From Ecytonucleospora hepatopenaei (taxonomy: Eukaryota > Microsporidia > Enterocytozoonidae), in assembly GCA_026692725.1 (NCBI GenBank), contig JAPMUG010000009.1, forward strand, positions 62,001-126,000: a stretch of 64,000 nucleotides of DNA. Reading direction: 5' to 3'. The stretch's first letter is position 1; every line of letters begins with the position of its first letter. The notes beneath the pieces are model-generated. The model made no database searches, was not told the DNA's origin, and was given only the letters and a program-made list of their open reading frames with translations. Shown here in pieces: positions 41,407 through 62,793 of this stretch. The translations under genes were made by a program, and so were the position numbers.

Positions 41407-41479
41407 GTATAATAAAAAAGAAGAAAAGACTTAAAAAGTGACATAAAAAATAGAATATTTTTTAAAAGTACTGAAAATT

Positions 41480-42244: not shown

Positions 42245-43021
42245 ATGATAAAATATAATAATTCTACTAATAAATCTAATATACAATCATATAATAGTGA
42301 TATTACTAATAAATGTAAGTATAGTAAGATAGCAATATTTGGACTACCAGCAAGTGGTAAAGGAACATTAGCAGAGAAGATAGCAAAGCAATTTAATTTA
42401 AAACATATATCATCAGGAGATATATTAAGGAGGGAATTTAAGGAGAATAAAATAAACAATAATAACAGTAATACTACTAATAAAATAAACATTACTAACA
42501 GTAATACTAATAATAACAGTAATACTACTAATGATCAAGAATCATCTATTAATAAAGGTGGATTTGCTACTGATGAATATATTATCAACCTATTATCTAA
42601 TTATGTACCAGATGATAATTACATATTAGATGGATTCCCACGTACCATAGCACAGATAGATGTGTTTGACATAGATATGGGAATACTAATAGATGTGAGT
42701 GAGGAAGTGGCATTAAAGAGAATGGAGATAAGGAGGAATACTAATATAAGTGATAATACTAATATAAGTAGTAATACTAATAATAGTGTATGTAACAATA
42801 CTAATATAAGTAACAATATATGTAATATAAGTAATAATACTAATATCAGTAATATTCGTAATGATGATAATTATGATACTTTTATTAATAGATTACATAT
42901 GTATAAACATAATACACAACCAGTAGTAGATGAATTAAATAGTAGAAATAAGTTAATAATAGTAGATGGTAATAAGAATAAAGAAGAAGTATTAGAAAAG
43001 GTATTAAATTATATAATGTGA
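42245..43021 (+). CDS. Adenylate kinase with Asn-rich inserts
   Basis: P-loop GLPASGKGT (about residues 33-41), SSGDILRRE (AMP-binding), YILDGFPRT, a LVDVSEEVALKRM-like strand, and FINRLHMYKHNTQPVV. Adenylate kinase converts ATP and AMP to two ADP. Two Asn/Ser/Thr-rich inserts fall at the NMP-binding domain (residues about 70-100) and exactly where the LID domain should be (about 165-210); the LID keeps only the flanking Arg (EIRRN) and a RNDD start of the closing arm. So this is a short-LID kinase with a poly-Asn loop. All core catalytic motifs remain. Confidence 0.9.
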   Translation: MIKYNNSTNKSNIQSYNSDITNKCKYSKIAIFGLPASGKGTLAEKIAKQFNLKHISSGDILRREFKENKINNNNSNTTNKINITNSNTNNNSNTTNDQESSINKGGFATDEYIINLLSNYVPDDNYILDGFPRTIAQIDVFDIDMGILIDVSEEVALKRMEIRRNTNISDNTNISSNTNNSVCNNTNISNNICNISNNTNISNIRNDDNYDTFINRLHMYKHNTQPVVDELNSRNKLIIVDGNKNKEEVLEKVLNYIM

Positions 43022-43194
43022 TAAATATATTAGTATTATATCATATAATAATATATTAAACTATATAATAAAAAATTATCAGTAATAAATAAAATAATAA
43101 AAAATTATCAGTAATAAATATATTAGTATCATATATTATAATAATAAATATATTAGTATTATATAATTATAATATAATAATAAATATATTAGTA

Positions 43195-46282: not shown

Positions 46283-46984
46283 ATGTTTATATATAATAGT
46301 ATTATACTATATACTAATATATTTATATTATGTTATGATTATATATTTATATCCACTAATAAACATACTGATAATAGATATTTAGCATATAATAATGGTA
46401 ATTTATATTTAGGACATATACCAGTTATAATTAAAATATATAGTAGTAATACATATAATACATATAATACTGATAGTAATACATATAATACTGATAGTAA
46501 TACATATAATACTGATAGTAATACATATAATAGATATAATACTGACAAATATATTGGTATTAAATATAATAATATAATTAAATATATAACAATAGAAAAT
46601 AATAAATATAATAATAAACATAATAGTAATAAATATAATACCAATAAACATAATAATAGTAATAAATATAATAATAGAATCATTGTTAGTGATAATAATA
46701 AATCACTATTTACCATACAATTATATCATTTTAATCATTCAAATAGTAAATATAATACATATATATTAAAATATAATGATAAGTGTATAATGAAAGACAT
46801 GAAGATAGGTGATTGTAAATTGATAAAAGATATATTTATATTTAGAATAGAGAGATATAGAAGACATAATAAAATAAAAAGAAGTAAAAATAGAATAACA
46901 CATAATAGTAATATAAACAGTGATATAAACAGTAATATAAACAGTAGTAATACTAATACTAATAACATTGTTAGTGATTATTAA
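46283..46984 (+). CDS. RBL-like secreted protein, Asn/Tyr-expanded (RBL1)
   Basis: Starts with a hydrophobic segment (MFIYNSIILYTNIFILCYDYIF), a likely signal peptide. The first conserved part (RYLAYNNGNLYLG) and the second (YILKYNDKCIMKDMKIGDCKL) match the two beta-trefoil pieces seen in the neighbouring RBL genes (Cys...Gly-Asp-Cys). A low-complexity insert with repeats of TYNTDSN (four times) separates them. The C-terminus is basic and Asn-rich. The domain assignment is by likeness to the other members and is weaker than for those at 52-62 kb. It is the only member on the plus strand. Confidence 0.6.
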   Translation: MFIYNSIILYTNIFILCYDYIFISTNKHTDNRYLAYNNGNLYLGHIPVIIKIYSSNTYNTYNTDSNTYNTDSNTYNTDSNTYNRYNTDKYIGIKYNNIIKYITIENNKYNNKHNSNKYNTNKHNNSNKYNNRIIVSDNNKSLFTIQLYHFNHSNSKYNTYILKYNDKCIMKDMKIGDCKLIKDIFIFRIERYRRHNKIKRSKNRITHNSNINSDINSNINSSNTNTNNIVSDY

Positions 46985-47139
46985 ATAAATTATATTAATA
47001 TTTTATTATTATATTATAATATTATAGTTTTATATGTTATTATGTTATAGTTTATTTATAGTTTTATATTTTATTATGTTATAGTTTATTTATAATATTT
47101 TATTATAGTTTATATTTATATTATAGTTTATTTATTTTT

Positions 47140-48117
47140 TTAACATAAATTTATAAAACTATTACCACACATTTGATTAGGATTCCAATAATTACTATTA
47201 GTATTATAACAATTACTATTAGTATTATAACAATTACTATTACCATTATAACAATTATTATAATTATAATTATTATCACAATTATCACTATCATCTAAAT
47301 TATTATAATTATTATAATTATTATAATTATTATGATTATAATTATTACATTTACCTCTACATAATGCCTTTAAATACTTTTCTATCCTACTCATCTTTCT
47401 ACCTATATTACCACCACTGTGTGATATATCACTACTGCTACTACTGTCAAACATCCTTTTAAACTTACCATACTTTCTACTTGCATACCTTTTGGTCCTA
47501 TTGATTCCTCTGCCTAGTGATCTGCCTATTTTCCTTCCTTTATGTCTCATGTACTTTCTTATTCCAAATATACCACTGCTGCTTGAACTGCTTGAGCTGC
47601 ATGAATCACTGCTGCTTGAATTGCTGCTTGATTCACTGCTGCTTGAATGGTTATAGTGGCTATTATAGAAATTATTTATATACTTATCATACTTGCTTTT
47701 GTTTATTACGTCTATACACGATGGTCTTTTGCACATGCGGAACTCCAGGGCTTGGTTTCTTTTGCACAGCTTAAATGTCAAAAAGTTCTTTTTGTCCTTT
47801 TCCAGGCAGTAGTCTCCTTTCCTTATGGCTATGTGGTTGTCGCTGACGTAGAGCAGCTTCATGTTTTGGTTCCACTTGAACACCTTCTTTTTGTTTTGCA
47901 TCTTTGCATTTCTTCTTATTTTTATTGTTCTAGTCAGATACTTATTCTTTGATACTATGTTCTTTACCATTTTATTACGAGTGTTTTTTATAGAAAATTG
48001 CTGTGGTTCACGAGATAAAAATACTTTACTACCTGATGTTCTTATAAACTTATTAGAAACTACTTCTTGGAAATAAACAGAGTAGATCACTATAAAATAG
48101 AGTTTAAGCAATATCAT
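47140..48117 (-). CDS. RBL-like secreted protein with Ser-rich and Asn/Tyr-rich tail (RBL2)
   Basis: Signal peptide MILLKLYFIVIYSVYF followed by KFIRTSG, like the first strand of the RBL family. A trefoil-like segment (HIAIRKGDYCLEKDKK, FKLCKRNQALEFRMCK) has the Cys-spaced pattern of the family. The C-terminal half is unusual: a basic region (RRNAKMQNKK) and a Ser-rich stretch (SSSESSSNSSSSD) near residue 165-185, then Arg/Lys-rich segments (RSLGRGINRTKRYASRK) and an Asn/Tyr/Cys repeat tail (NSNCYNTNSN). It could be a surface or spore-wall protein; inferred. Confidence 0.6.
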   Translation of the reverse strand: MILLKLYFIVIYSVYFQEVVSNKFIRTSGSKVFLSREPQQFSIKNTRNKMVKNIVSKNKYLTRTIKIRRNAKMQNKKKVFKWNQNMKLLYVSDNHIAIRKGDYCLEKDKKNFLTFKLCKRNQALEFRMCKRPSCIDVINKSKYDKYINNFYNSHYNHSSSSESSSNSSSSDSCSSSSSSSSGIFGIRKYMRHKGRKIGRSLGRGINRTKRYASRKYGKFKRMFDSSSSSDISHSGGNIGRKMSRIEKYLKALCRGKCNNYNHNNYNNYNNYNNLDDSDNCDNNYNYNNCYNGNSNCYNTNSNCYNTNSNYWNPNQMCGNSFINLC

Positions 48118-48407
48118 TTATAAAATATTATATTTATATATTTATATATTATTAATAATATTTAATATATGTTTAAGTTATATATAAATATATTTTAATC
48201 TGTAATAAATTATGTTAAAACATTATAAACAGAAATGAAACAAAATCATAAGAATGTTTTAAATATAATATTAAATCTATTTAATATATCAGATAATTTA
48301 ATATATAAATTGTTTTTTTATTTTAATTAATTTTAAATTATTTAATTATAAATTATTTATTTTATATTTTTTAATTTTATTTATATATTAATGTATTTTA
48401 TATTTTA
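48118..48407. other. Spacer
   Basis: 290 bp, AT-rich, with TTTAATATA repeats. No gene. Confidence 0.4.
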
Positions 48408-49235
48408 TCATATTATTGATACCAAATATTCCTGTACTTTTTCTTTTTTAACACTATCTATTTTTCTATTTCTGGTACTATATGGCATAAACATCTTTGG
48501 TGTTCTTTTATATGTTCCATCTATAAATATTTTGGTAAATAAATTGTCTTTATGTGCTATTTTATACCTTGTTTGTTTTGATTTGAAAATATCAAGAACA
48601 TTTTGATTAGTTGAAATATTTACATCCTCAAACACACAACTATCACTTCTATCACTCTTATGGCTATTATTGTTACTCTCATTATTCTCATTTTTACTCT
48701 CTAATATTACTTCCATGGCTGATCCACAATCTCCAAATGTTAAATTTCTATTTAAGCATATATCTTTAGTATTATGCATAATTATAAAATATCCTTTTGA
48801 ATTTATACTAATTCTAAAAGCATCTTCCTTTTTAGTAAGCTTAAAACTGGAAATTTCAAGCTTAGGTTTTTTATGTGATTTGCCACTTGAAATAGAAAGT
48901 ATTTTTATTTCACTGCGATCTGTTTTATCAGGTTCAACTATTCTTTTTTTATGATAATTGTTAGAAGTATGCCTATCCATATAATATTTAGAATTAGAAT
49001 TATTTGAATTAGAATTATCTGAATAAGAACTAAAATAATTGTTTGAATTTGTTCTAAACTTTATTATGGTAGAAAACGCATTTTCCTTACCTGCAAGTGT
49101 CCTAATAAAATCTACTCTATATCTGCTCTTACCTACAATAAGTCTATCATTTTTTATACCTAAATATTTCCTTCTACGTGAAGAAGAAACCACTCTAAAA
49201 TATTCACAGAGAATTTCAGCAAAAAAGAAAAACAT
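48408..49235 (-). CDS. RBL-like secreted protein (RBL3)
   Basis: N-terminal hydrophobic stretch MFFFFAEILCEYFRVV, then RRRKYLGIKNDRLIVG as first trefoil strand. A Ser/Asn-rich linker (NSNNSNSKY) and a second conserved part YFIIMHNTKDICLNRNLTFGDCG (Cys, Gly-Asp-Cys) follow. The C-terminus is basic (RNRKIDSVKKEKVQE). The start is preceded by a TTGTTTCACA element adjacent to the ATG, related to the TTGAAACA element of the other family members. The ligand is unknown; ricin-type trefoils commonly bind galactose-like sugars. Confidence 0.65.
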   Translation of the reverse strand: MFFFFAEILCEYFRVVSSSRRRKYLGIKNDRLIVGKSRYRVDFIRTLAGKENAFSTIIKFRTNSNNYFSSYSDNSNSNNSNSKYYMDRHTSNNYHKKRIVEPDKTDRSEIKILSISSGKSHKKPKLEISSFKLTKKEDAFRISINSKGYFIIMHNTKDICLNRNLTFGDCGSAMEVILESKNENNESNNNSHKSDRSDSCVFEDVNISTNQNVLDIFKSKQTRYKIAHKDNLFTKIFIDGTYKRTPKMFMPYSTRNRKIDSVKKEKVQEYLVSII

Positions 49236-49994
49236 TGTGAAACAATCTTAATGATTTTAATATGAAACTAAAAAGGATGAAACCAATAAAAATAATAACA
49301 ATTAAATTGTTAAACATTGATTATCATGTAAAATTTAACACATATTTTTTTACTATACAAATAAAAAAACAAAATAAAATATAAAAAAACAAAATAAAAT
49401 ATAAATTAACAAAATAAAATACAAATTAATCTAACTATAAAAATAAAATATAATGAAATATAATGTGTTAAAGATATTTGATATGCCCTGGTTAATTTCT
49501 ATTTATTATTTTTCAGGTTCTATGGAAATATACTAATATTTGACATGTATTTATAAATATTTACTTATAACCAATAGGATGGGTTAAACTGTTTAAAACG
49601 TTTGTATAATTTTTATTTTAACCTTATTTAAAAAACAAAGAGTAAGTTTAAATATTATCAATTATGCTGTGCATGACATATTTTAAAAGGGATAATTTTC
49701 TAAATAAAATTTTAAATAATAAAAATTTTTTAACTAATAAAAAAATAAAATAAAAAAAATAAAATAATAATATTTTTTGTATTCTTTTACTTAACTTATT
49801 ACCAATTCTTTTATAGAATTGATATCTTTTAATAACTTTAGCCATTATAATCTAATAACTTTAGCCATTATAATAATGTGACATGTTAACGATGTAACAT
49901 GAACACTTCCTAATAATTTGTGCTATAATTTTATAAAAATTAAGCATCTTTCAAATATTGTAACTTTGTGTTAATTTAATTGATATGGTACTTA
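49236..49994. other. Long spacer with dubious small frame
   Basis: 759 bp. A 22-bp sequence (ATAATCTAATAACTTTAGCC) is repeated in tandem near 49840-49880. Repeats ACAAAATAAAATATAA occur near 49370-49430. A 65-codon minus-strand frame at 49648-49845 with a hydrophobic middle is listed among rejected items. Confidence 0.45.
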
Positions 49995-51086
49995 TCAAAT
50001 ATACTTTACTTTTATGATTTTACTGATCATCTTCTTCTTCTTCTTCATGTAAAAGACTCTCTGTAGCTCTCTCAATTGCCCCGACAAAGTCAAAAAATGG
50101 TTTTTTTCCAATTGAGTTTTAATAGGTGCTAAATCAGTTACATCAAAGTGTTTTGGTTTAGATGAAGTTCCTGTAATTTTAAGCAAATCTGCAGATAATG
50201 TGATAATCTTTTCCTTTTCAAGCTCTACTTCTTTTAAAACAGCGCCAAATTGTTCTTTTACACAATTTAACTGTTTATTTAATTTTAAACACATGGTTGC
50301 TTGAGCAACAGCTTGCAGATTATCATCAACTGACATTTGTAGCTTACCTTTAAGATTCTGTGTAGCAGTTGAAGATTTAACATCAGCTTTAGCCACTCCT
50401 GAAGATTGTAAGAGCTGTTTATTCAATGTGTTCAAAACTGATGATGCTCCTTTGTTATTTTTCGCAGTTGCATATTTAGACAATACAGCTAAATAACTCT
50501 CTAACAGATCCTCAACTGTGGCTTTTAAATTATCAAGTACAGCTAATACTTGTTCTACATTTGTATTTACTTCTGTACATAAACCATAATTTTTAAGCAT
50601 TTGTTCTTTTGTTCTTTCAATGTTACCATTTGTAGTATGTATCAAACCTCTACAATAGTTAAAAAGCTGTTCTGTATTAAAAGAAGGCTTTTCTTCATCG
50701 ACCAAATCTTTTAATGGTTTAAATAATTTTGGCGTAAAACATTTTAGCATACACTTTCCCACTCCAAAACTCATGCTTTTCAGTTGTTCTAATTTTTCTT
50801 CTGGTGTCAATTCTGGTTCTGGTTCTGGTTCTTCATCATCTTCAAATTGTGATTCTATGTTTAAACCTTCCAACATAGCTTTTTTGCTTGCACCAGCTTC
50901 ATCATCATCACTATCAAATCTCTTTCTTTTCTTTGATGCTTTTGTTTCTTCTTCTTTTGGTTCTTCTTCGTTTTCAGATTCAAACCAATCGGCTGGAATC
51001 ATTGTTAAATTTGGATGTTCTTCTTCTCCAGAACACTTAATATTATTCAATGAAAGAAATACTGATAGAACGGTATCAAGTATCAT
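49995..51086 (-). CDS. Secreted acidic helical protein, probable frameshift near its C-terminus
   Basis: Signal peptide MILDTVLSVFLSLNNIKCSG, CCC right before the ATG (51089-51091). The mature protein starts acidic with a nuclear-signal-like SKKRKRFDSDDD and a run of PEPEPE, followed by about 230 helical residues with Lys, Gln, Thr, Ser and Cys. The frame as read ends in a basic tail (KKKKMISKIIK). If the A7 run (T7 at 50101-50107) is one base short, the frame instead continues PFFDFVGAIERATESLL and an acidic end, closing at 50020; that end matches the rest better. Secreted helical Cys-containing proteins of this size in microsporidia include spore-wall and polar-tube proteins, but no specific match is claimed. 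Confidence 0.7.
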   Translation of the reverse strand: MILDTVLSVFLSLNNIKCSGEEEHPNLTMIPADWFESENEEEPKEEETKASKKRKRFDSDDDEAGASKKAMLEGLNIESQFEDDEEPEPEPELTPEEKLEQLKSMSFGVGKCMLKCFTPKLFKPLKDLVDEEKPSFNTEQLFNYCRGLIHTTNGNIERTKEQMLKNYGLCTEVNTNVEQVLAVLDNLKATVEDLLESYLAVLSKYATAKNNKGASSVLNTLNKQLLQSSGVAKADVKSSTATQNLKGKLQMSVDDNLQAVAQATMCLKLNKQLNCVKEQFGAVLKEVELEKEKIITLSADLLKITGTSSKPKHFDVTDLAPIKTQLEKNHFLTLSGQLRELQRVFYMKKKKKMISKIIKVKYI

Positions 51087-51088
51087 AT

Positions 51089-51091
51089 GGG
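51089..51091 (-). promoter_or_regulatory. CCC start-proximal signal of the acidic secreted protein
   Basis: On the minus strand CTAACCCAT precedes the ATG at 51086, with CCC two bases away. Confidence 0.55.
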
Positions 51092-51764
51092 TTAGAAAGC
51101 GTTTTAATTTAAATACCTATATTTTAATATATTTTTAATTTAATAAAAATTAAAAAGAGCTAAAAAAGTGTGTTTAATTGATGTTTAAGTTAGTTTTTAA
51201 CAATAATTTTGTTTTTGGTTACATACTTTTTTAATTTGTGGGAAATTAAAAAAATATTTTTAATAAATTCCTAAACTGTGTTATTTTTTTGGTGAAAATA
51301 TAATATTCGAGCAGATTGTTATTAAAAGTTAAATGTTTCAAGTTTAAAAAACCTTTATCTCATTTTTTTTTCTAAAAATCTATTTATTTTAATACAAATA
51401 AAGAAATATACAAAATCATATTTTTTTATTATGAAATTTTATTTATTTCTAAATAAATATATTTAAATATAATATTTACATGCAATAATATATTTAAATA
51501 CAATATTTACATACAATAATATATATAAATACAATAATATATTTTAATAAATCATAAGGAGTTAAGTTTTTTAAAACACTTTTTAAACAACTAATAAATT
51601 TTAATTTTGAACAATAGTTTATAAACAACAATTAAAAATTTAAAAATAATAGTTAATAGCTAATAACTAATAGCTAAAAAATTATAAATGATAGTTAATA
51701 ACTAATAGTTAATAGTTAATAAAGATTAATTTTTTTGTTTTTAAATGTTAAACCCAGTGGATAT

Positions 51765-51955
51765 CTTTAAGAAAACTTGAGTAATAAACAAATCCTAAAT
51801 GGAATTTCATTGACCAAAACCAAGGTCATTAGAAAAGTCCGAATGAAATGAAGACAAACTGGTCAGGTTTTGATAGAATAGGGCCAGGAACCTTTTACAA
51901 ATAGTTAGTTTTTTAGAATAAAAGTTTCCCGTGAGAGGTGAAATATTTAATTAAA
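51765..51955 (+). repeat. Repeat family R2, copy 5 (longest)
   Basis: Contains GACCAAAACCAAGGTCATT, AACTGGTCAGGTTTTGATAG, ATAGGGCCAGGAACC and then AAAGTTTCCCGTGAGAGGTG, so it spans both the core seen at 14.2 and 14.9 kb and the downstream half seen at 11.8 and 19.5 kb. It lies far from the transposon desert, showing that the family is dispersed. Confidence 0.7.
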
Positions 51956-52107
51956 AAATAATAAATTCAATTGTAAAAACTATATTTCTTGTTAAAAAAT
52001 AATTTAAATTATAGTAAAATACAATAAATTTAAATCAATGGTTTTTAATTTCTTTATAAATAAAAAATACAATTATTTATTAACTATTTATTTACTAATT
52101 ATATTAT

Positions 52108-52692
52108 TTACTGGTAGCTATAGCTTTTTCCTGTTGTATATCCTGTTCCACTAGATGAATAAGATCCTGAATGACCGCTTGAACTGCTTGATTTACTTGA
52201 TGATGACGATGAGTATGTTTTTGTTGTTCTTGTCACAGACCCACCTGATACATAAGAAGGTGACGAAAGATTTGTGCTTGCCTGATTTGTTCTTAAAAAC
52301 TCTACTACTTTATCACCTTGGCAATCTCCTAATGTTAATGACTTATTGTCATCATTTTTTATTACGCACTGATCACTATGTTTTAACACAAATGTTCCCT
52401 TATTCGTCAAAACAAATGAGAATACCTGTTTTGCACTTGTTGTATCCTCTTTTGCTGCCTTAAGTGAATTTCCTTCGGCTGTTACTGACATTGTTCCCAA
52501 TGAAATCATCACAAACAGGGAAGACTTACCAGATGGCTGAATTAATTTTACGTCTGAAGCCTGTGCCATGCTATCTGTTATTGATGCACCTGATTCATCA
52601 ATGGTAAAATAATTCCTAGAAGAATACTCCTGTAAATAGAATGCATATGCATTGTTTACGTGTAAAATCAATGAAAGTATCTGTTGAAACAT
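52108..52692 (-). CDS. RBL-like secreted protein with Ser-rich tail (RBL4)
   Basis: Signal peptide MFQQILSLILHVNNAYAF; then YLQEYSSRNYFTIDESG; a trefoil-like region with FVLKHSDQCVIKNDD and LTLGDCQGDKVVEFL, containing the Cys and Gly-Asp-Cys-type elements. From about residue 145 on, the protein is a Ser/Gly/Thr/Tyr tail (SSSSSSKSSSSSGHSGS). It probably binds carbohydrate through one trefoil while the Ser tail may be O-glycosylated; inferred. TTGAAACA-type elements occur at the start and 40 bases upstream. Confidence 0.75.
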   Translation of the reverse strand: MFQQILSLILHVNNAYAFYLQEYSSRNYFTIDESGASITDSMAQASDVKLIQPSGKSSLFVMISLGTMSVTAEGNSLKAAKEDTTSAKQVFSFVLTNKGTFVLKHSDQCVIKNDDNKSLTLGDCQGDKVVEFLRTNQASTNLSSPSYVSGGSVTRTTKTYSSSSSSKSSSSSGHSGSYSSSGTGYTTGKSYSYQ

Positions 52693-52906
52693 GAAACATA
52701 ATATATTTTACATTTTAACTTAAACTTGAAACATTTTCATGGAAATGATTGGTAAAAACAATTTAAAGTTTTAATAAATTATATATTATTTTGTTATTTA
52801 ATATAAATTTTTATAATAATTTATAAGTTTTAAATATTTTAAATAAAGTTACCTGATAATATTATTAAATTATATATCTATTTAAAAACATTTTTGAAAA
52901 AAAATT

Positions 52907-54406
52907 TTAAAACCTGTTACTTTTATTTGCTTCTGTTGACTCATTGATTTTTTTATCTTCAAATCTTTTCAGTATAAGTTCTCTAAAAGTTTTATTATCA
53001 AATGAAGAAATAATTTTATAAATTTCCTCTTCTAGTGCTTTTAAAGTGGGATATGCTGTTTTCCTAAACTGTTCCTCTTTAAACAAAATCAATGAACTTC
53101 CTTTCAATCTTTTTGGGTCAGATGCATTTTTTTCGAATGCAATCATCGCATTTAAAAGATTTTTACGTTTTACAAAAAGCTCTTTAAGAACATTTGTCTG
53201 TGTTTGTAACTTTTCTAAAGAAGCTTTTTGTTTTTCTAAAAAAATAATATTTTTTGCTTCATCCATTTCTTTAATATCTTCATGCTCATTTTTTATTGAT
53301 TTTATTTCACAAGAAATTATTGAAGAAGAATCTCCTATTACGTTGATTGCATCATTTTTATTAGATTCACATGGTTTTGTAGAAATTTCATAGAAATCAT
53401 TTAAGAAAGTAAATTCTTCAATCTTTAAAGTATCATCTAAAAGATCAATTTCCTGTAATTTTTTATATACTGAATTTTTTAATAAAATAATTTCTTCTGT
53501 ATATTTTACATACATTTTATTGTATTTTTCTTTGCATATTTTTTCAATTCTTACAAACGTTTTTTTGATCTCTATAAGAATTCTGTTGCTATATTTACCT
53601 TCTTTATTATTTAAAATGTGTTCTTCTTCATCCGTAAATACATTATTAAGATCAAAAAGTTTTTTATAATTAAAAACTTGTAGCTTAATTAGTTCAAATT
53701 CCTTTTTATTTATATTAATTTTATTTATTTGGGAATTATTCATTCTTTCTAAATCATAAATTTTCTCGCTAAAATTAAAATCTATTTTTTCTTCTAATAC
53801 TTTTGCTGCATCTTCTATTTTTGTATAAAAGAATGTTCTCAAACATTCTTGTTCATTTAATTTTTCCCTTAAAAAATTAAGTTCTTTCTGTATTTCTACA
53901 TTTTTATCATATAAATTTTTAGTTAACATTTCTTCGTTTTCTTTATATTTTACATCATTTAAATATAATTTTAAGCTGTTAATTTCTTTTGTTACCCTTT
54001 CGTTGTTTTCCTCGATTTCTAATTTTATGCTCTCGTATTTTTCTTTTTGTAAGCATAAAAATTCATGCATTTTTTTGATGTTAGAAAAGTCAGAAAAACT
54101 TTTATTTTCATATTCTGTTCCGTAAATTTCTTTATAAATAATTTTTAAACTATTTAGCACATTCTCATTTTTTTCTTCATATTTTTTTCTATAGAAACAA
54201 ATAACATTCCTATACATTTCTAAAAATTCTTTTGTCTTCGAATAAAAATCATCAAGAAGCACATGGTCAATTTCGATAATTTCTTTTTGTAAATTATCGA
54301 ATAGATTTAAAACATTACTTAACAAAGTTGTTTTTTGCTCCGTCAAATTATTTTCATTTTCCTTTTCATTTATGTTTATATTTTCATCTGTATTTGTTTG
54401 AGTCAT
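52907..54406 (-). CDS. ASE1: MAP65/PRC1/Ase1 antiparallel microtubule cross-linker
   Basis: 499 residues, mostly coiled coil. The diagnostic microtubule-binding block lies near residues 420-450: IAFEKNASDPKRLKG, then LFKEEQFRKTAYPTLKALE, matching the FExxAxDPxRL...LLxEExxRK of MAP65/Ase1/PRC1. The N-terminal part has the dimerising rod; the region before the block holds an acidic linker. These proteins bundle antiparallel microtubules in the spindle midzone. Yeast Ase1 is 885 residues, so this is a short form that lacks the long C-terminal tail. It lies between RBL genes but belongs to the housekeeping set. Confidence 0.86.
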   Translation of the reverse strand: MTQTNTDENININEKENENNLTEQKTTLLSNVLNLFDNLQKEIIEIDHVLLDDFYSKTKEFLEMYRNVICFYRKKYEEKNENVLNSLKIIYKEIYGTEYENKSFSDFSNIKKMHEFLCLQKEKYESIKLEIEENNERVTKEINSLKLYLNDVKYKENEEMLTKNLYDKNVEIQKELNFLREKLNEQECLRTFFYTKIEDAAKVLEEKIDFNFSEKIYDLERMNNSQINKININKKEFELIKLQVFNYKKLFDLNNVFTDEEEHILNNKEGKYSNRILIEIKKTFVRIEKICKEKYNKMYVKYTEEIILLKNSVYKKLQEIDLLDDTLKIEEFTFLNDFYEISTKPCESNKNDAINVIGDSSSIISCEIKSIKNEHEDIKEMDEAKNIIFLEKQKASLEKLQTQTNVLKELFVKRKNLLNAMIAFEKNASDPKRLKGSSLILFKEEQFRKTAYPTLKALEEEIYKIISSFDNKTFRELILKRFEDKKINESTEANKSNRF

Positions 54407-54500
54407 TCTTAATTAATGCAGTACTTTTTTGTTTACAAAATAAGCTTAAAGAAAAATATAAATTTTAAAGGATTAAAAAGTTTATTTAAAAACTGTCAAC

Positions 54501-56195
54501 TTATCTCTTAAATAAATTATATACCTCATCAAGACTTGTTATACACTCGTAGTCAGAACTTTGTAAAATACCCTTTAACCTGTTAAATTCACCTATATTT
54601 TCTATTAGCATGTCTTTACAAACATAAAGCTTATCTTCTAACTGAATATAAGTGTGTTCATTAAAAATACCAACAAATGTTGCATTTTCCAAAGAAATTA
54701 ACTTTCCATTATTAAAATTTTTATTTTCTTTTGTGTGTAATACAATTTCTATCATGTCATTTTTGGCATTTAACTGCGTGTTTGGTTTTATTTCGTCATG
54801 ATTAGTCAGTTTAGGTGTTATAATCAAAGAATTGTTTATATCTTCCTTTTTTAATTTAATACTGTTTGTCTCATTTTCTTTAACATTTTTTGTAATTTTA
54901 TTATCATTATCACTGTTTACATCAATTTCATTTGTTATTGGTGTGTTAAAATTTATCAAATCATTCAAATAGTTTTCTTCAGCATCCAAATTTTCTTTGT
55001 TATTTGATAAGATTTTATCACGTCTTTTTGAATAAAAATTCAATGGCTGTGACGTAAAAGTTTCATATATCTTTGTGCTGACTTTATGTGTATTTTCTGG
55101 TTTTACTTCCTTTTTTGATGAACTGATTGAAGTACAATGTGATTTATTTTCATCTAAAACATAACAAAATTCTTTTAAAATTTCTGCATAAATTTCATTT
55201 TTATTTTCAATTTCTATTGCGTGTTTTCCTGGATGGATGTTAATATCTGCAGTAACATTGTTTAAAAATATTAAAACACACATATTGAAATCCGTGTATA
55301 TTTTAGATTGTCTAAAAATTTCTTTTTTAATCATAGGTTCTTGAACAAACCTACTGTTTACAAAAATACTAAAAATATTTTTAGAAGCATTTCCTATGTA
55401 AATAGAAAAGGAAACACCTTTTTTGATAATTTTTGAAATGGTAAATATATTAGTAAGACCAAATGTTTTTTTGATTAGATCGGTTTTTGACATTTCTTCT
55501 TCGTTTTTTGCACACTCTCCGTATATATTATGAGAAATATCAACTTTTCCAAAATTATAAATTTTATACATGTCAACAATATGTTTTATTTTTAAAATTT
55601 CTTTATTTCTGATTAATCCATTGCTAAAGAATTCATTTCTTCTTAAAATATTCTTTTCAAAAATATTGCTTATTTCAATTATTGTATTGTATTTTTGTAA
55701 ATCAACAAAAAAACTATTATCTATGCATTTTTCAGTTTTAACAACTTCTTTCAGTACAGAGTCAACATATTTTGCAACAAAAAAATGTTTTGAATTTTCC
55801 TTTTCTTTTGTATACACCTTAATATCTGATGTTAGTCCTATAGAATGGAGTGCTTCTCCTCTATAACCATATAAATCAATTAAATTTGTATATTCATGAC
55901 TCTTTTGAGAAACATTTTTTAAACTTTCGAAAATTTTATTGTTTATTTTACTTGTGTAATGTGCAGTACAAATAAAAGGTAAATTTTCTTCAGATATTCC
56001 TGTTCCATTATCTTTAACTAAAATAAAAGTGCCTTTTTCAACACTTTCGCAAATTTCCACCTTAATTTTAGTTGCCTGTGCGTCCAATGCATTTTCAATA
56101 ATTTCTTTAACAATAGTTTGTATATTAGTAGCTACTTCACCTGCACTTATATTCTTTATTGTATTTTCTGAAAGTTTAATGATTTTTCTCTGCAT
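54501..56195 (-). CDS. MutL homologue (MLH1-type) with shortened C-terminus
   Basis: GHKL ATPase motifs: VKEIIENALDA (about 29-39; catalytic Glu31, metal Asn35), DNGTGI (about 61-66), YTSKI, and GYRGEAL (about 109-115). A transducer domain follows (NSRFVQEP, DINIHPGKHAIE). After an Asn-rich linker the end has NATFVGIFNEHTYIQLEDKLYVC, the FVG...ALxQxxTKLYL strand of the MLH1 C-terminal domain. At 564 residues it stops shortly after that strand, so most of the dimerisation domain and the FERC-type end of MLH1 are missing. No DQHAxxE endonuclease motif is seen. MLH1 is preferred over PMS1. Confidence 0.85.
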   Translation of the reverse strand: MQRKIIKLSENTIKNISAGEVATNIQTIVKEIIENALDAQATKIKVEICESVEKGTFILVKDNGTGISEENLPFICTAHYTSKINNKIFESLKNVSQKSHEYTNLIDLYGYRGEALHSIGLTSDIKVYTKEKENSKHFFVAKYVDSVLKEVVKTEKCIDNSFFVDLQKYNTIIEISNIFEKNILRRNEFFSNGLIRNKEILKIKHIVDMYKIYNFGKVDISHNIYGECAKNEEEMSKTDLIKKTFGLTNIFTISKIIKKGVSFSIYIGNASKNIFSIFVNSRFVQEPMIKKEIFRQSKIYTDFNMCVLIFLNNVTADINIHPGKHAIEIENKNEIYAEILKEFCYVLDENKSHCTSISSSKKEVKPENTHKVSTKIYETFTSQPLNFYSKRRDKILSNNKENLDAEENYLNDLINFNTPITNEIDVNSDNDNKITKNVKENETNSIKLKKEDINNSLIITPKLTNHDEIKPNTQLNAKNDMIEIVLHTKENKNFNNGKLISLENATFVGIFNEHTYIQLEDKLYVCKDMLIENIGEFNRLKGILQSSDYECITSLDEVYNLFKR

Positions 56196-56314
56196 TTTTA
56201 GTTTTATGTAAAAATTTAAGGGAGCATACTACCAAAAACACGTGAATGTATTGAAAGAATTCCTTAATTTTGTTAAAAATCAATATAATATGAAAATTAT
56301 TAGAAAGTATTTAA

Positions 56315-57142
56315 TTATTTCCCTGTGATTTTATCTAAAAGTTCTTCTTCTTTTTGTTTTTCATTAAAAAATTCATCTTTATCCCGTTTTTCATTTTCTT
56401 CTTGTTTTCTTATCATTTCTTCTTCAATGATTTTACGATTATTTTCATATCTTTCATATTCTTTGTCAGATAAGCTTATTTTTTCTTCTTTTTTATCAGG
56501 AACATCTTGTAGCTTGGAAGACGTGTCATCTGTAATAAATTCTGAATCCGTATTGTCTAAGTAAATATAATTATTCTTGCTTGTCTTATGTTCATCATTT
56601 TCTGTTTCTAAAATTGGTTTTAAATCTTTTTTAGAATCAACTGCTGCATTTTCAGGCGTATCAACCAAGAGAAACTTCTGTGCATCAATCCCTTTGCATT
56701 TTTCAAAAATTACCTGACCTCCTTCTTCTGTCCAACACAAATTAGAATTTATCAAAACTATATTTTTGTATTTATCATCCTCTATATTTTTTATTACAAG
56801 TATCTCATCTCTATTTAAATCATATTTATAACTAACTTCAGATCTTTCATACAGTGATATTCTTTTAGGTGGATTAACATTATAATTTTTTCTGCTTAAT
56901 TCAGAAATTAGAAGATCATTTACTTTTACTTCGCGAGATTCAACATGTACTATAAACATGTCATTTGTGCCATATAAATTTTTATGAGTTATCGGATTGT
57001 TTTCTGACAGCCTATACTCAGATCCATCTTCATATTTTGGAACTAAAAAGTTTCCCTTGGTTTTTAAAGAGTTTACAAAAGCAGAAGAAAATGTTTGAAT
57101 CTTTACTGATCTTAAGAAATTAAAATAAAAACTAAAAAGCAT
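56315..57142 (-). CDS. RBL-like secreted protein with acidic coiled tail (RBL5)
   Basis: Signal peptide MLFSFYFNFLRSV, then KIQTFSSAFVNSLKTKGNFL, the first trefoil strand shared by the array. A larger than usual middle includes KYDLNRDEILVIKN and a second half with NLCWTEEGGQVIFEKCKGIDAQKFL (Cys-Trp instead of Cys-Phe, then Lys-Cys). The C-terminal 100 residues are Glu/Lys/Asp-rich and likely coiled (EEMIRKQEENEKRDKDE). TTTGAAACTTTAA precedes the ATG directly. Confidence 0.75.
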   Translation of the reverse strand: MLFSFYFNFLRSVKIQTFSSAFVNSLKTKGNFLVPKYEDGSEYRLSENNPITHKNLYGTNDMFIVHVESREVKVNDLLISELSRKNYNVNPPKRISLYERSEVSYKYDLNRDEILVIKNIEDDKYKNIVLINSNLCWTEEGGQVIFEKCKGIDAQKFLLVDTPENAAVDSKKDLKPILETENDEHKTSKNNYIYLDNTDSEFITDDTSSKLQDVPDKKEEKISLSDKEYERYENNRKIIEEEMIRKQEENEKRDKDEFFNEKQKEEELLDKITGK

Positions 57143-57281
57143 TTAAAGTTTCAAAGATGATGATCTAAAAAAACAAAATAATTTATGAAACTTGTTTTAC
57201 TTTTTAATAATTTTAATAAACATAATTAATTATAACATGTTTTAAATTAATTTTATTTAATTTTTAATCTTATTTTAAAAT

Positions 57282-58022
57282 TTACTGATGCATTCTTGTT
57301 ATCTTTTGAATTTGTTCTGTATTTGGATTTTGCGTTTTGAATGCTTCTATTTTTTTGTTTTCAGGTAAATGCACCCCTGCTTTTATAATTTGCTGAAGAG
57401 ATGTCCCAAATTTTTCTTTAACTAACTTTTCTAAATATTCATAAATTTCTTTCATATTTGGTGTTTTTAAATCTTCCAATTTTTTAGTTTTTTTATTTTT
57501 ACTGTCTTTCATTTGTTTTTGTAGTTCCTCTTTTTCTTTTGTGCAATTATTTAAATTTTCTCTGGTTAAATTGTCTTCTTTTTCGTGTTTTTCTTTAATT
57601 AACATTTCCTTTGCTGTTGTATCTTCTGTTACTTCTGTAAATACTTGCTCTTTTTTATTTAAACAGTCTTCAAGCACCAACGTGCCGTTTAAAGCTGCCA
57701 TGCACATTTTTTTACTTCCTCCAAAATACGTGTATTTCATACGTTTTGATCCATCCATTATTTCTTCTTTTTTAAATCTTTGATTTGTTCCCCCGTGTTC
57801 AGTATATTCAATAATTTTATTTTTACTTCTTACTACATCAAAAACTTTTTTGTTTGCATTATTTACTATTAAAAAATAATCACTGATTTTTTTGAACGTA
57901 AAATCTGTTGATTTTGCAAAATCACTACTAAAAGTTGCTTTATCCCCAGTAATTGATAAATAACTACCATCAAATGATTGTATCTTTACACTTAAAATAT
58001 TTTTCAAAAAGTAAAAAAACAT
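57282..58022 (-). CDS. RBL-like secreted protein (RBL6)
   Basis: The frame is open back to an ATG at 58079, but the second ATG at 58022 gives the standard family N-terminus (MFFYFLKNILSVKIQSFDGSYL), and a TTGAAACATTTTTA element lies right before it, so 58022 is preferred. The trefoil has RSKNKIIEYTEHGGTNQRF and MKYTYFGGSKKMCMAALNGTLVLEDC. A Lys/Glu helical tail follows, including EDLKTPNMKEIYEYLEKLV. About 246 residues. The same TTGAAACA sequence also overlaps codons 2-7 of the longer frame. Confidence 0.75.
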   Translation of the reverse strand: MFFYFLKNILSVKIQSFDGSYLSITGDKATFSSDFAKSTDFTFKKISDYFLIVNNANKKVFDVVRSKNKIIEYTEHGGTNQRFKKEEIMDGSKRMKYTYFGGSKKMCMAALNGTLVLEDCLNKKEQVFTEVTEDTTAKEMLIKEKHEKEDNLTRENLNNCTKEKEELQKQMKDSKNKKTKKLEDLKTPNMKEIYEYLEKLVKEKFGTSLQQIIKAGVHLPENKKIEAFKTQNPNTEQIQKITRMHQ

Positions 58023-58207
58023 TAAAAATGTTTCAAAATAAATTAAAAAACTATTGTTACAAAAATGTTTCAAAAACATTGCTTTTGTATATTTAAAAGC
58101 TTTTTAATGTAAAAACTGAAATTTAAAGCTTTTGTAATTAAAAAAATATTTAAAATTTTAATTAGATAGATAAGTTACATGAATTTATTGTTTAAAATTA
58201 CAAAAAT

Positions 58208-58834
58208 TTAATTTAAATAGCCAAAAGGGTTTCTACAATCATAATATTTACGTGATTTTCCTTGTGATGTTCTTCCTCCTATGTTTTCTATTTCTTCTTG
58301 ATGATTTTTAGATTTTTCTGCCATTTCTTTTTCCATCATTTTTCTAAATTCCTCTTCTCTTTTTAAAAACTCTTCTTCCCTCTTTTTTAAATCATCCTCT
58401 TTGTTTTTTAATTCTTCTTCCTTTGCATTAATTTCGCTTTGTTTTTTCGAAAATTCTTTTTCTTTTTCTTCTGCTGCTATTTTTTCTAGGCGACTTTTTT
58501 CTGCATCTTCTTTTTCTTTGCTCAAAGTAGGATCTTCAAGAACTTCCTTAAACCATTGAGAAGTGGAATCACTGCACATATCTACGAAAATATCACCAGA
58601 TCTTTCATTCAGACAGCGCATTCCTTGCCCACTTTTGTATCTGATTATTATATAACCTGGGGTCGACGCAGGTTCCTTAATATATTTTTGTGCCCCTCCT
58701 CCTGTGTAATTGGACTCAAGTAAGGTTGTTCCCCACTTATACTCCATAACTGAATTAGGTGTTTCAGTATAAAAGAAGAATGCATTTCCTGTTGGTTTAA
58801 GCGTAAATTCTGTACCTTCTGAATATTTATGCAT
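58208..58834 (-). CDS. RBL-like protein, signal-peptide start codon missing (RBL7)
   Basis: The first ATG in frame (58834) lies inside the trefoil domain. The same frame stays open 32 codons upstream to a stop at 58931-58933 and encodes the usual family start (CFFNLIYSVKIQTYSGKYVKL), but without any ATG. The rest is a normal member: GTTLLESNYTGGGAQKYIKE, RCLNERSGDIFVDMCSD, and a Glu/Lys coil (REEEFLKREEEFRK) ending NPFGYLN. Either a non-AUG start, an indel in the T7 run near 58915, or a decayed start. It is closest to the gene at 60626-61768. Confidence 0.65.
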   Translation of the reverse strand: MHKYSEGTEFTLKPTGNAFFFYTETPNSVMEYKWGTTLLESNYTGGGAQKYIKEPASTPGYIIIRYKSGQGMRCLNERSGDIFVDMCSDSTSQWFKEVLEDPTLSKEKEDAEKSRLEKIAAEEKEKEFSKKQSEINAKEEELKNKEDDLKKREEEFLKREEEFRKMMEKEMAEKSKNHQEEIENIGGRTSQGKSRKYYDCRNPFGYLN

Positions 58835-59065
58835 AAGAGTGTTGCTTCCTGCATGTAACTTTACATACTTGCCAGAATATGTTTGTATTTTAACTGAATA
58901 AATTAAATTAAAAAAACAAGATAGCCTAGATTAAAAAAATAAATAAATTTTTTAAATTTATTATTTAAAACATTGTTTGATAAATTATTTGGTATTTTTT
59001 AATAAATGATTTTAAAAATATATGATTTCAATCAATAACCTGTTAAAAAGAATTTTGATTAAATT

Positions 59066-59692
59066 TTAATTATCAATGAATTTTGGATTTTTATATGATT
59101 TATATTTAAAACAATTTGAATTATCATTTTCATTACAGCCTGAATGTTCAATGTTTTGGTGATGTTCTTCTTCTTGTTTTAACACATTTTCTTTTTTAAT
59201 AAGTTTATTGTCTTTAAACTTTTGGAGCTCTTCTTCTCTTCTTATCAGTTCCTCTTCTTTTATCTGCAACGGAGTAAGAATTTTTATTTTTCTATCATCA
59301 GGATTTTCATAAATTTTCTTAAATAACTGTTCTGTATTTCCACTACATGTTTTTAAGAGAGAAACATGCATATTTTCAACAGTAAAACATCTTTTCTCTT
59401 TTTCAGTTTTAAAAATAATACTGATAAAATTTTCTTTTATGTCATTTTTTATGGTAAATCTTTGGTTTATTCCATCATGGTAAGGTTTTTCAAGTATAAG
59501 AAAGTTAGAATTTTCTAATGCATGATCTTTATTAGTTTTAATGTTAACATGCCCACCTTTGTCTTCTAATTCAAAATTTGTGCCCTCTAACCATCCACTA
59601 ACTGTAATAATACCAGTTTTAGTGGTTTTTAAAAAATCTCCGTTTTGTGTTTGCAGTTTAAACGAATTTATAAAATTAAAAAACCAAAACAT
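59066..59692 (-). CDS. RBL-like secreted protein (RBL8)
   Basis: Signal peptide MFWFFNFINSF, then KLQTQNGDFLKTTKTG. The trefoil has NSNFLILEKPYHDGINQRF and RCFTVENMHVSLLKTCSG, with the conserved Cys-Phe-Thr and Cys near the end. The tail holds REEELQKFKDNKL, nearly the same as in the neighbours at 59781 and 60626, and ends with KSYKNPKFIDN. Mean size 208 residues. It is one of three adjacent members sharing tail sequence, hence recent tandem duplicates. Confidence 0.75.
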   Translation of the reverse strand: MFWFFNFINSFKLQTQNGDFLKTTKTGIITVSGWLEGTNFELEDKGGHVNIKTNKDHALENSNFLILEKPYHDGINQRFTIKNDIKENFISIIFKTEKEKRCFTVENMHVSLLKTCSGNTEQLFKKIYENPDDRKIKILTPLQIKEEELIRREEELQKFKDNKLIKKENVLKQEEEHHQNIEHSGCNENDNSNCFKYKSYKNPKFIDN

Positions 59693-59780
59693 GAAAAATG
59701 TTTTAAAAATTAATTTATATTTTTTGTATCAAAATGTATCATAAAATTAATTTATCAATAATAAAGTTAAATTAAAAATA

Positions 59781-60455
59781 TCATTCATTTACAATGCCAA
59801 AAGGATTTTTATACTGTTTATAATATCCAGGCTGGGTTTTATCACATTCTTTACACCCATAACAATCACACCAATTGTTTTTAGAGTGTATTTTTATGTC
59901 TTCATCCAAACGGTGTTCTTTTTTAGCCAATTCTTCATCTTTGAATCTTTGAAGTTCTTCTTCCCTTCTAATTAATTCTTCTTCTCTTATTTTAAGATCA
60001 TCTTCTGCTTTCTCTGGAGCTGTTTCTTTAGGTTCTTCCTTTTTAAGTGCTGGGTCTTCAAATGCTTTTCTAATTTTTTGCGTAGATCCACCATTACATG
60101 ATCTAAGAACAATTTTGCCGCCTTCTGAAGTAAAACACTTTTTACTGCCATCCCCCTTATAAATAATGTTAATAAAATCTTTGTCACCCGTTTCTTCAAT
60201 AGCAAATTGCTGGTTGTATTTTTTGTGCATTCCAGATTCATATATGTTTATTGTGTATGGAATATCCAGTGTCTTCCCATTTTTTGTAGTTATAAGTAAA
60301 AAACTTCCTTCGTCTTGTATGCCATAATCAGAACCCTCAGAATATTTTTTTGTTAAATTAGTTCCAACATCTTTATTGTTAGTGGTTACAAAAAACTGAT
60401 TGTCATAAGTTTGTAGCTTAAAACATGTAGCTAAACTTAAAAGATGCAATATCAT
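59781..60455 (-). CDS. RBL-like secreted protein (RBL9)
   Basis: Signal peptide MILHLLSLATCF, then KLQTYDNQFFVTTNNK. Trefoil part: IYESGMHKKYNQQFAIEE and KCFTSEGGKIVLRSCNGGSTQK. The tail has REEELIRREEELQRFKD, then a Cys-rich patch (WCDCYGCKEC) and YKQYKNPFGIVNE, similar in its last residues to the end of RBL7 (NPFGYLN). The Cys patch may bind metal or form disulfides. A TTGAAACAATGTTTTA element lies about 35 bases upstream of the ATG. Confidence 0.75.
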   Translation of the reverse strand: MILHLLSLATCFKLQTYDNQFFVTTNNKDVGTNLTKKYSEGSDYGIQDEGSFLLITTKNGKTLDIPYTINIYESGMHKKYNQQFAIEETGDKDFINIIYKGDGSKKCFTSEGGKIVLRSCNGGSTQKIRKAFEDPALKKEEPKETAPEKAEDDLKIREEELIRREEELQRFKDEELAKKEHRLDEDIKIHSKNNWCDCYGCKECDKTQPGYYKQYKNPFGIVNE

Positions 60456-60625
60456 AATATTTCATCTACGTCTTTTTTGCATGAAATCTAAAACATTGTT
60501 TCAAAAATATTATGTAATATAAAATATAAGACACTATAACAATTACAATTATAAATAATTTACAATTTATTATCAATTTAATAATTAATAATTAAATAAA
60601 TTTAATTTTATATTTAAAATCATTA

Positions 60626-61768
60626 TTAATGTGCAACTTCCTGTATTTTTTTAGTGTCTGGGTTAAATAATCTGCCTCTAGTTTTTTGTGAAGGATTTTC
60701 ATTGTTGTAATCATTCAGTTCATTATTATTTGGTCCAGAATTGTTTTTATTGTGATTATTATCACCATTACCACCTAATTTATTATTAGAATTGTTGTTA
60801 CCATTACCACCTACTTTATTTTTAGAATTGTTACCACCGTAATTAACAGGACCATTAACCTTAACATCACCATCATCAAATACTGGATCTTTTAAACCTG
60901 TGTCAATAATTTTGCCATAATCATCAGTGTTATTACCACCATTATAACCTGAATTTCCATTTCCATCTTCATTTTGATTAGAATTAGTATTTGGATTTGC
61001 TGTGTCTGGTCTGTTTTTATCGAAATTTACACCGTTACTTTTATCACGCACATTTCTTATTGAATTCTCGTCCATGGCTCTGTCCTGTTGTGCTTTTAAA
61101 CATTCCATTTCTTTGATTCTTTTTTTGTTGTCACATTCTGCCTTTTTCTTTTCAAACTCATCTTTTCTCACCTCAAACTTTCTTTCTCTTTCTTCATAAT
61201 CTTTTTTTGCCTGCGCACGTGCTTCTTCTTCTCTTTTTGCAAGATCTTCCTCTCTCTTTTTTAGATCTTCTTCTGCTTTCTTCTTTTCTGCTTCTGCTTC
61301 TTTTTGCTTACGCTCTTCTTCTTCTTTCTTTTTTTGAGCTTCTTCTGCTTCTTTCTTTGCTGCAATTGCCGGGTCTTCGCTTACCTCTCTGAACATTTGA
61401 TTTTCAGCTGATGAACAAGATTGCAATACAACATCACTGTCTCGTGCTGTAAAACACCTTTTACTGCTTCCGCTTCCATATGTTAGTTTTATAAAACCAG
61501 GATCACTTGCAGTTTCTGTATTAAATCTTTGGTTTCCACCTCCATGTTCATTGTATTCTATCAGAGTAGTTCCCCATGCAAAATCAATTACCTTGCTACC
61601 ATTACCCGTTTTTATAATTTTGTAGTTACTTACATTTTTAAAGGTAAAATCTGTTCCATCTTTAAATTCTTTTTGCAATACATTACTCCCACTATACATT
61701 TTCATGTATTTTCCAGAGTGAGATTGTATTCTAACTGCGTTAATCAGACTTATCAAATAATAAATCAT
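60626..61768 (-). CDS. RBL-like secreted protein with long coiled coil and Asn/Gly tail (RBL10)
   Basis: The start is taken at 61768 (MIYYLISLINAV), which matches the short signal peptides of the family; an ATG at 61798 gives ten extra residues, and a TTGAAACATGTTTTAA element lies just upstream of that one. The trefoil has RIQSHSGKYMKMYSGSN, GTTLIEYNEHGGGNQRF and RCFTARDSDVVLQSCSS. A 110-residue coiled coil (KKAEEDLKKREEDLAKREE) follows, then an Asn/Gly-rich segment with repeats of GGNGNNNSNNK. The longest RBL protein here, at 380 residues. The coil and tail could give rod-like multimers; inferred. Confidence 0.78.
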   Translation of the reverse strand: MIYYLISLINAVRIQSHSGKYMKMYSGSNVLQKEFKDGTDFTFKNVSNYKIIKTGNGSKVIDFAWGTTLIEYNEHGGGNQRFNTETASDPGFIKLTYGSGSSKRCFTARDSDVVLQSCSSAENQMFREVSEDPAIAAKKEAEEAQKKKEEEERKQKEAEAEKKKAEEDLKKREEDLAKREEEARAQAKKDYEERERKFEVRKDEFEKKKAECDNKKRIKEMECLKAQQDRAMDENSIRNVRDKSNGVNFDKNRPDTANPNTNSNQNEDGNGNSGYNGGNNTDDYGKIIDTGLKDPVFDDGDVKVNGPVNYGGNNSKNKVGGNGNNNSNNKLGGNGDNNHNKNNSGPNNNELNDYNNENPSQKTRGRLFNPDTKKIQEVAH

Positions 61769-61956
61769 GTGTCTTTTACTGTGACAGAATATAAACATGA
61801 TATTTAAAACATGTTTCAAAACATATTTTTAGTAATATGAAGATCGTAGGGGATAATGAAAATTAAAGTTATAAAAGATTCTAAATTAAAATATTTTAAT
61901 TAATAAAAATAATTAATTTTAAATCAATAATAAAACAATGAATTTTAATTAATAAT

Positions 61957-62793
61957 TTAACATCTTTTTCTATGACAATTACAACTATTCATACTTGAAC
62001 AATTACATGAATTTTGATTGCAACTATTATATCCATTTGTATTACACGTTGCTTGTTGGCTTCTTAACAAATCCAAATAACAACTGGTAGCAAGCATTTG
62101 ATCAATAGAATAGTCATTATAGCTCATACATGGAGAAGGCCTTGTTGGAAAACATGAAGATGATGTTAAACAACTCATTTTGCTTATTTTACCAGTTGTT
62201 TCTAATAAGTTGCTTTTATTTTTTCCTAAAAACATTTTTTTACCAAACAAATTGATTTTGCTAAAAACATTTCCTACTAAACTCGAACCTTTGGTTATTT
62301 CAAGTAAATTTGATTTTTCGCTTGTTGTGTTTTTATTCAGTGGCTTGTCACTAGAATTATTTTCAAATGAAAAAAACTGTGAGTCAAGTTTTTTGCATTG
62401 TTTCAATTTTATAATATTTCCTTCCGCTGTATAACAAAAATTGCCGTATTTCATAACTGCAACAATTTGGATAAAATTAGGCTCTACTTCTTTAATTTGC
62501 ACTTTATCAAACAAGCTTTCCTGTAATCTTTTTGTTTTTTCATCCACTGGTAGTTTTGTGAGATCATCATGTCCTTCTAGAACCATAATGTCTTGATTTC
62601 CATATAATTTCATATTGCCAAACCCTATTGTATAAAAGTTTTCTTTACTTGCTGAATCTTTGTATGGATTTAATGTTAAATTAATTGCTGTTTTTGGGCT
62701 ACCCATAAAAATTCCGTTTCCATCGCTATGAGACAGAAATGAACCATTAAAACTTTTTAAATAATGCCCATATATTCCTTTTATAAAAAACAT
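61957..62793 (-). CDS. RBL-like secreted protein with Cys-rich tail (RBL11)
   Basis: Short N-terminal hydrophobic region MFFIKGIYGHYLKSFNGSFL merges into the first trefoil strand. NFCYTAEGNIIKLKQCKKL is the second Cys-containing strand. Two similar segments with FLGKNKSNLLETT and EKSNLLEITKG form an internal repeat. The C-terminus is rich in Cys, Asn and Ser (NSCNCSSMNSCNCHRKRC), suggesting disulfide cross-linking. A TTGAAACAATATTTTA element lies about 40 bases before the ATG. It lacks the Glu/Lys coil of its neighbours. Confidence 0.7.
   Translation of the reverse strand: MFFIKGIYGHYLKSFNGSFLSHSDGNGIFMGSPKTAINLTLNPYKDSASKENFYTIGFGNMKLYGNQDIMVLEGHDDLTKLPVDEKTKRLQESLFDKVQIKEVEPNFIQIVAVMKYGNFCYTAEGNIIKLKQCKKLDSQFFSFENNSSDKPLNKNTTSEKSNLLEITKGSSLVGNVFSKINLFGKKMFLGKNKSNLLETTGKISKMSCLTSSSCFPTRPSPCMSYNDYSIDQMLATSCYLDLLRSQQATCNTNGYNSCNQNSCNCSSMNSCNCHRKRC

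Follow-up and report, generated by a model that had tools for sequence, protein, structure and literature searches.

Positions 46283-62793 of the window, by which we mean the whole 64,000-nucleotide stretch analysed here (C13:62001-126000 in the 3.09-Mb, 13-contig genome of the microsporidium Ecytonucleospora hepatopenaei), contain eleven open reading frames, ten on the minus strand and only 46283 on the plus strand (genes are named by their first coordinate; Table 1). The original prediction described an array of eleven related, secreted proteins resembling ricin-B-lectins (RBLs) at this place, and the frames are indeed found there. The run of array genes is interrupted by three unrelated genes (49995, 52907 and 54501), and the array extends past the right edge of the window.

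Five of the eleven genes (57282, 58208, 59066, 59781 and 60626) form a core with pairwise identities of 23-43% over ~120 residues and, when two of them were used as genome queries, the matches were confined to genes of this array. Profile comparison, with 3,885 shuffled or reversed versions of 185 frames as decoys, links two further genes to this core: 56315 scores 25.2 bits with the core profile, above all decoys (hhalign E = 6e-7), and, more weakly, 61957 scores 11.6 bits, with one of the 3,885 decoys higher (hhalign E = 4e-4 over 39 columns). Thus, the claim that the eleven genes are related holds for seven of them, whereas the other four score like the non-member 49995, which served as a negative control. 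The members are divergent, and the suggested diversification of the family is putative. As to the fold, the 123-residue core domain of 60626 gave a high-confidence predicted model, and a structure search identified it as a single β-trefoil, the matches including FGF and fascin trefoils. The trefoil head attributed to all eleven proteins is therefore backed in the core by the model and the structure search and in 7/11 by relatedness; in the four outliers it is unproven. We consider it established that seven genes are related and that the core domain has a trefoil fold, as predicted with high confidence; judged by a match of properties described below, one member appears to be among the abundant spore-surface proteins.

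Table 1. Genes and domains of the array, its neighbors and one relative to the right of the window
Feature	Coordinates	Strand	Description
Outlier 1	46283..46984	+	233 aa; hydrophobic start, Asn/Tyr repeats, third-lobe-type Cys motif; trefoil unproven
Outlier 2	47140..48117	-	325 aa; possible trefoil at residues 13-132; tail Ser-rich, basic, Asn/Tyr/Cys-rich
Outlier 3	48408..49235	-	275 aa; Ser/Asn-rich insert, third-lobe-type Cys motif; trefoil unproven
Non-member, negative control	49995..51086	-	363 aa; hydrophobic start
Outlier 4	52108..52692	-	194 aa; possible trefoil, Ser-rich tail
Non-member	52907..54406	-	499 aa; no Pfam match, no hydrophobic start
Non-member, MutL-type mismatch-repair protein	54501..56195	-	
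Trefoil-family gene	56315..57142	-	275 aa; pI 5.0; Glu the commonest residue
Core trefoil gene	57282..58079	-	265 aa; pI 9.2; Lys the commonest residue; lobe 2 FDV...HGGTNQRF
Core trefoil gene	58208..58930	-	Frame opens upstream of trefoil; no in-frame ATG there
Core trefoil gene	59066..59692	-	208 aa; Glu/Lys coil tail, end YKNPKFIDN
Core trefoil gene	59781..60455	-	224 aa; Glu/Lys coil, Cys cluster, tail end YKNPFGIVNE
Core trefoil gene	60626..61798	-	390 aa; pI 7.57; 44.1 kDa; Glu/Lys coil and Asn/Gly tail
Predicted β-trefoil domain of 60626	61370..61738	-	123 aa; model m0583c79c48b0
Divergent trefoil-family gene	61957..62793	-	278 aa; related mainly via third lobe; Cys-rich tail
712-aa protein	L015:5157-7295 (C13:130657-132795)		Weak Ricin_B_lectin match, E 5e-4

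None of the eleven proteins scored above any cut-off with the Pfam families Ricin_B_lectin (PF00652; best 16.3 of 29 bits) and RicinB_lectin_2 (PF14200; best 17.6 of 25.6 bits). Over the whole genome, no protein exceeded the cut-off of the Pfam ricin-type families, and the genome search with RicinB_lectin_2 gave no match. The Pfam cut-off was not taken as the definition of an RBL, the family being defined by structure, as in PMC10759460. Searches of protein databases listed only the window's own proteins and one unnamed relative, 85% identical to 52108 (P0005, source labelled merc); one of these searches covered the best 7,992 candidates by shared words. The sequence search of PDB yielded nothing significant (best E = 0.019). 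The control 49995, inside the array, has Elf4 as its best Pfam match (E = 4.5e-5), with no family above the cut-off.

At the level of motifs, the predicted N-terminal strand (K/R)(I/L)Q(T/S)xxGxY is exact in 3/11 proteins and present in the relaxed form [KR][IL]Q[TS]x(3,4)[YF] in 6/11, and the RCFT of the second strand, read as (R/K)CFT, is present in 3/11 only. All eleven members contain the pattern C-[hydrophobic]-x(n)-[LIVF]-x-x-C, in which 9-14 residues separate the two cysteines; this spacing was fixed post hoc and widened to take in all of them. Within the core five, lobe 2 carries NQxF in 4/5 and Asp in 3/5, lobe 3 has Gln in 5/5, and no QxW or QxF was seen in lobe 1, so that a sugar-site-like signature appears to be retained, in part, in lobe 2 of most core members. 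As to the putative secretion, a Kyte-Doolittle scan showed hydrophobic starts in most of the eleven, the weakest being those of 61957 and 59066. In 58208, the first ATG lies at 58834, within lobe 1; another start, a sequence error or a decayed start may account for this.

The original prediction also envisaged one module recombined with many tails. In the core, the tails are themselves related, with Glu/Lys coils in four genes and an end of the N-P-x-x-x-x-N type common to three of these. The 59066/59781 pair was recovered both in the tree of five trefoils (bootstrap 100) and in that of four tails (98), which fits whole-gene duplication rather than shuffling; tail shuffling was accordingly rejected for the core. 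The Asn/Tyr repeats of 46283 were likewise rejected as a functional tail: across 22 genes that lie in the window but outside the family, the Asn+Tyr content varies inversely with the GC content (r = -0.79), so that these repeats are a feature of the AT-rich neighborhood. The stretch 38001-46000 has 12-16% GC in 2-kb windows, and all its genes, adenylate kinase (42245-43021) among them, are rich in Asn/Tyr (24-37% in four non-members).

The family extends beyond the window. In the next 10 kb to the right (L015), the trefoil stretches of a 252-residue and a 296-residue gene product match each other (E = 3.4e-9), and with a seven-member profile the latter, at 16.5 bits, outscores every one of the 3,885 decoys. 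For the 712-residue protein encoded there, the core profile gives 13.6 bits, just over the best decoy, and the seven-member profile 7.8 bits, under several decoys; this protein carries two third-lobe-type Cys motifs and possibly comprises several trefoils in one chain. A 146-residue candidate was found by eye in the same 10 kb; the last 29 kb of the contig on that side showed no evident others. Elsewhere in the genome, there is one gene on contig C5 (Ricin_B_lectin E = 3.9e-6, 28.2 of 29 bits) and another on C7 (E = 0.0045), which the seven-member profile scores at 13.8 bits, higher than any decoy; each of the two adjoins one candidate found by eye. On C7, L016:4204-6465 (C7:251203-253464) holds two convergent trefoil-like genes, for a 528-residue protein with, by eye, a Ser-rich insert and a Cys-rich end, and for a 203-residue RBL. 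In total, at least twelve genes have support, unequal in strength, from profiles, pairwise matches or Pfam (seven in the window, three in L015, one each on C5 and C7). To these, 52108 can be added weakly and six others by motif or by eye (46283, 47140, 48408 and one each in L015, L016 and L017). On the contig of the array, the count covers the sequence from C13:62001 rightward. When 56315 or the C5, C7 or 712-residue protein was searched singly against the genome, only the query itself was matched, so that the genome-wide counts are lower bounds. Some 2.3 kb past the last trefoil candidate lies an Argonaute gene (L020:75-1340, C13:135075-136340; Piwi E = 4e-72, ArgoMid 1e-6).

A connection to the spore comes from the E. 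hepatopenaei spore-surface proteome, in which 15 abundant proteins are listed (PMC8874471). One of these, OQS54094, is given as 390 residues, pI 7.57, 44.1 kDa and one heparin motif, and 60626 equals it in all four respects. In the window and the other stretches read, 12 frames share their length with a row of that table, and only 60626 and EhSWP1 also match in mass and pI; a pI within 0.05 of 7.57 is found in 2/77 open reading frames of at least 150 residues. EhSWP1 was taken as the positive control, and its single strict heparin motif agrees with its table row; a looser definition gives two in 60626 and four in EhSWP1, and three were counted in the latter by PMC5848443. The EhSWP1 locus itself was identified by published primers: SWP-1F has one perfect match in the genome (its reversed control none), all four SWP primers match at the locus, the first amplicon measures 514 bp, as published, and the nested one 147 versus the published 148 bp, and the frame there has the length, pI and mass of EhSWP1. 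In 60626 we count six sequons, and five N-glycosylation sites are predicted for OQS54094 in the table. Hence, 60626 appears to be OQS54094, which would place one array member among the abundant spore-surface proteins; this is a match of properties, not of sequence, and it supports, for that member, the spore-facing part of the predicted host- or spore-facing role. In the available parts of PMC8874471, OQS54094 is described as uncharacterised, with EiSWP2 as homologue, and the words ricin and lectin are absent. The match would give a fold and a gene family to a protein that is abundant on the spore surface, and so far unexplained, in a parasite causing economic damage in shrimp.

We find it probable, on balance, that this locus arose by tandem duplication and encodes a lineage-specific set of secreted RBL-like proteins, each with a single β-trefoil, that work as spore glycan binders of Enterocytozoon (Ecytonucleospora) hepatopenaei. 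Under this scenario, each protein would enter the secretory pathway during spore formation, its coil, Ser-rich or Cys-rich tail would serve as an anchor by which it is packed into the wall of the spore or the polar tube, and the outward-facing trefoil would bind glycans, either on the surface of the host cell or on wall and tube glycoproteins of the parasite itself; the glycan binding, host adhesion, timing and tail roles are what we infer. Several observations weigh against this scenario. The four outliers give hhalign E values (52108, 0.3; 47140, 0.16; 48408, 0.21; 46283, 0.3) like that of the control 49995 (0.18). The Cys pattern occurs also in 11/66 other open reading frames of at least 150 residues, four of these 11 being RBL candidates, and the supported trefoil genes L015:3070, L015:4044 and L016:5854 outside the window are not among its carriers. 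Finally, the published table lists no signal peptide for OQS54094 (PMC8874471), which also limits the claim of secretion; the ATG upstream of the hydrophobic stretch in 60626 may hide one.

The outliers could, accordingly, form a second, unrelated set: a true trefoil family would occupy 56315-62793, and the genes left of MutL would encode secreted low-complexity proteins that are alike by chance and by AT-rich composition. Consistent with such a division, which we deem rather doubtful, 46283, 47140 and 48408 lack a profile link and went undetected among the 185 frames by a wider ten-sequence profile, 52108 ranked 13/185 with that profile, with 17/3,885 decoys equally high, and the AlphaFold2 model of 47140 reached a predicted local distance difference test (pLDDT) score of 35. 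Together with the control-level hhalign values, these results rule out the notion of all eleven as proven trefoils. The Cys pattern, besides being common in other frames, arose in 11, 257, 37 and 13 of 2,000 shuffles each of 46283, 47140, 48408 and 52108, respectively; its presence in 4/4 left-hand genes, a post hoc pattern, speaks against two sets, but as sequence evidence for membership it is weak. Further, the strand pattern recurs, by eye, in three repeats, and 52108 weakly matches a trefoil family (its Pfam match to CDtoxinA, E = 0.007, is under the cut-off); a genome search with 52108 found itself and a weak match (E = 0.08) in a gene resembling, by eye, ribosomal protein S4.

The function, too, could be of another kind. 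If the array encoded structural spore-wall or polar-tube proteins, with trefoil and coil used for packing and cross-linking without host binding, the match of one member to the surface proteome, the coil and Cys-containing tails, the FGF and fascin trefoils among the structural matches, and the report of RBLs as PTP3 partners in V. necatrix (PMC10759460) would all be accommodated. Against this reading, which we hold to be not very likely, stand the residues of sugar-site type retained in lobe 2 by most of the core, and RBL-type proteins elsewhere that are reported to bind host cells or help enter them (PMC10759460). Effectors secreted into the host cell after germination are, in our judgment, unlikely: several members are basic (pI 9.2-9.9 for 46283, 47140, 48408 and 57282), S. 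lophii RBLs 1766 and 691 were found in the germination medium (PMC3749934) and NbRBL28 of N. bombycis in the host nucleus (PMC9224602), but one array member matches, by its properties, OQS54094 from the surface extract of purified spores, and a ricin-B-like lectin of A. locustae was found in spore homogenate, not in host cytoplasm (PMC3976299). The array also yields a small set of candidates for attachment proteins (spore adhesins) or detection antigens.

Elsewhere in the window, two tandem protein-kinase-like genes (22027-25066) have a hydrophobic stretch near the N-terminus, and their Pfam match begins at profile position 67-70 of 263, so that the N-lobe looks missing or highly divergent. 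The frames 8992-9375 and 16879-17418, with weak, under-cut-off matches to Tc3 and Sleeping Beauty transposase helix-turn-helix domains, are possibly Tc1/mariner remnants. PGK was not found in the genome and is present in 14/14 prokaryotic control genomes; its absence is reportedly to be expected of Enterocytozoonidae. The best matches of eL21 among solved ribosomal proteins are 6zu5 and 7qep, which we take to be microsporidian ribosomes.

Titles and abstract openings on E. hepatopenaei or Enterocytozoon with ricin, RBL or lectin revealed no such array, the subscription literature being mostly outside this survey; among the papers covered, OQS54094 is mentioned in one. PTP4-6 were assigned to the RBL family in 2024 (PMC10759460); in the available parts of that paper, E. 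hepatopenaei occurs in the reference list only. The PTP4, PTP5, PTP6 and RBL1-9 clades of Nosematida share with the array a trefoil domain and often clustered genes, and are located in the polar tube or spore wall (PMC10759460). In E. cuniculi, PTP4 is Glu-rich and PTP5 Lys-rich, and their genes are clustered (PMC10229552). Here, 56315 (Glu 12.4%) adjoins 57282 (Lys 15.8%), so that, speculatively, 56315 is a candidate PTP4-like and 57282 a candidate PTP5-like gene; the other core members are Glu/Lys-rich, too. According to a 2026 survey, PTP4 was lost, by orthology, in all nine Enterocytozoonida covered (PMC13174016). The array puts this loss in question without settling it, and whether the loss is real or reflects undetected divergent homologues is now testable. 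Should Enterocytozoonida have kept PTP4-type adhesins that diversified in E. hepatopenaei into the trefoil array, 56315/57282 being a PTP4/PTP5 pair in derived form and OQS54094 (60626) a glycan binder abundant on the spore surface, one locus would carry much of the host-attachment repertoire of the parasite; as a whole, this proposal seems to us improbable.

Secreted RBLs in clusters formed by tandem duplication were reported already in 2013, including those of E. cuniculi and N. ceranae; in S. lophii, there are two clusters of two genes, with RBLs found in the germination medium (PMC3749934). The RBL family of N. bombycis comprises 52 genes with tandem groups of 19, 6, 5 and 4 (PMC9224602), so that the size of the present array is not, as had been supposed, notable in itself. 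The N. bombycis RBLs are likewise divergent, mostly secreted and of 20-35 kDa, with a recognised domain in 30/52, and have a reduced QxW, with QxF in its place, a reduction similar to that in the array core. However, N. bombycis belongs to Nosematida, not Enterocytozoonida, its RBLs fall into four subfamilies, with one member in the host nucleus (PMC9224602), and the Glu/Lys coils and the Asn/Gly tail set the array of E. hepatopenaei apart from them.

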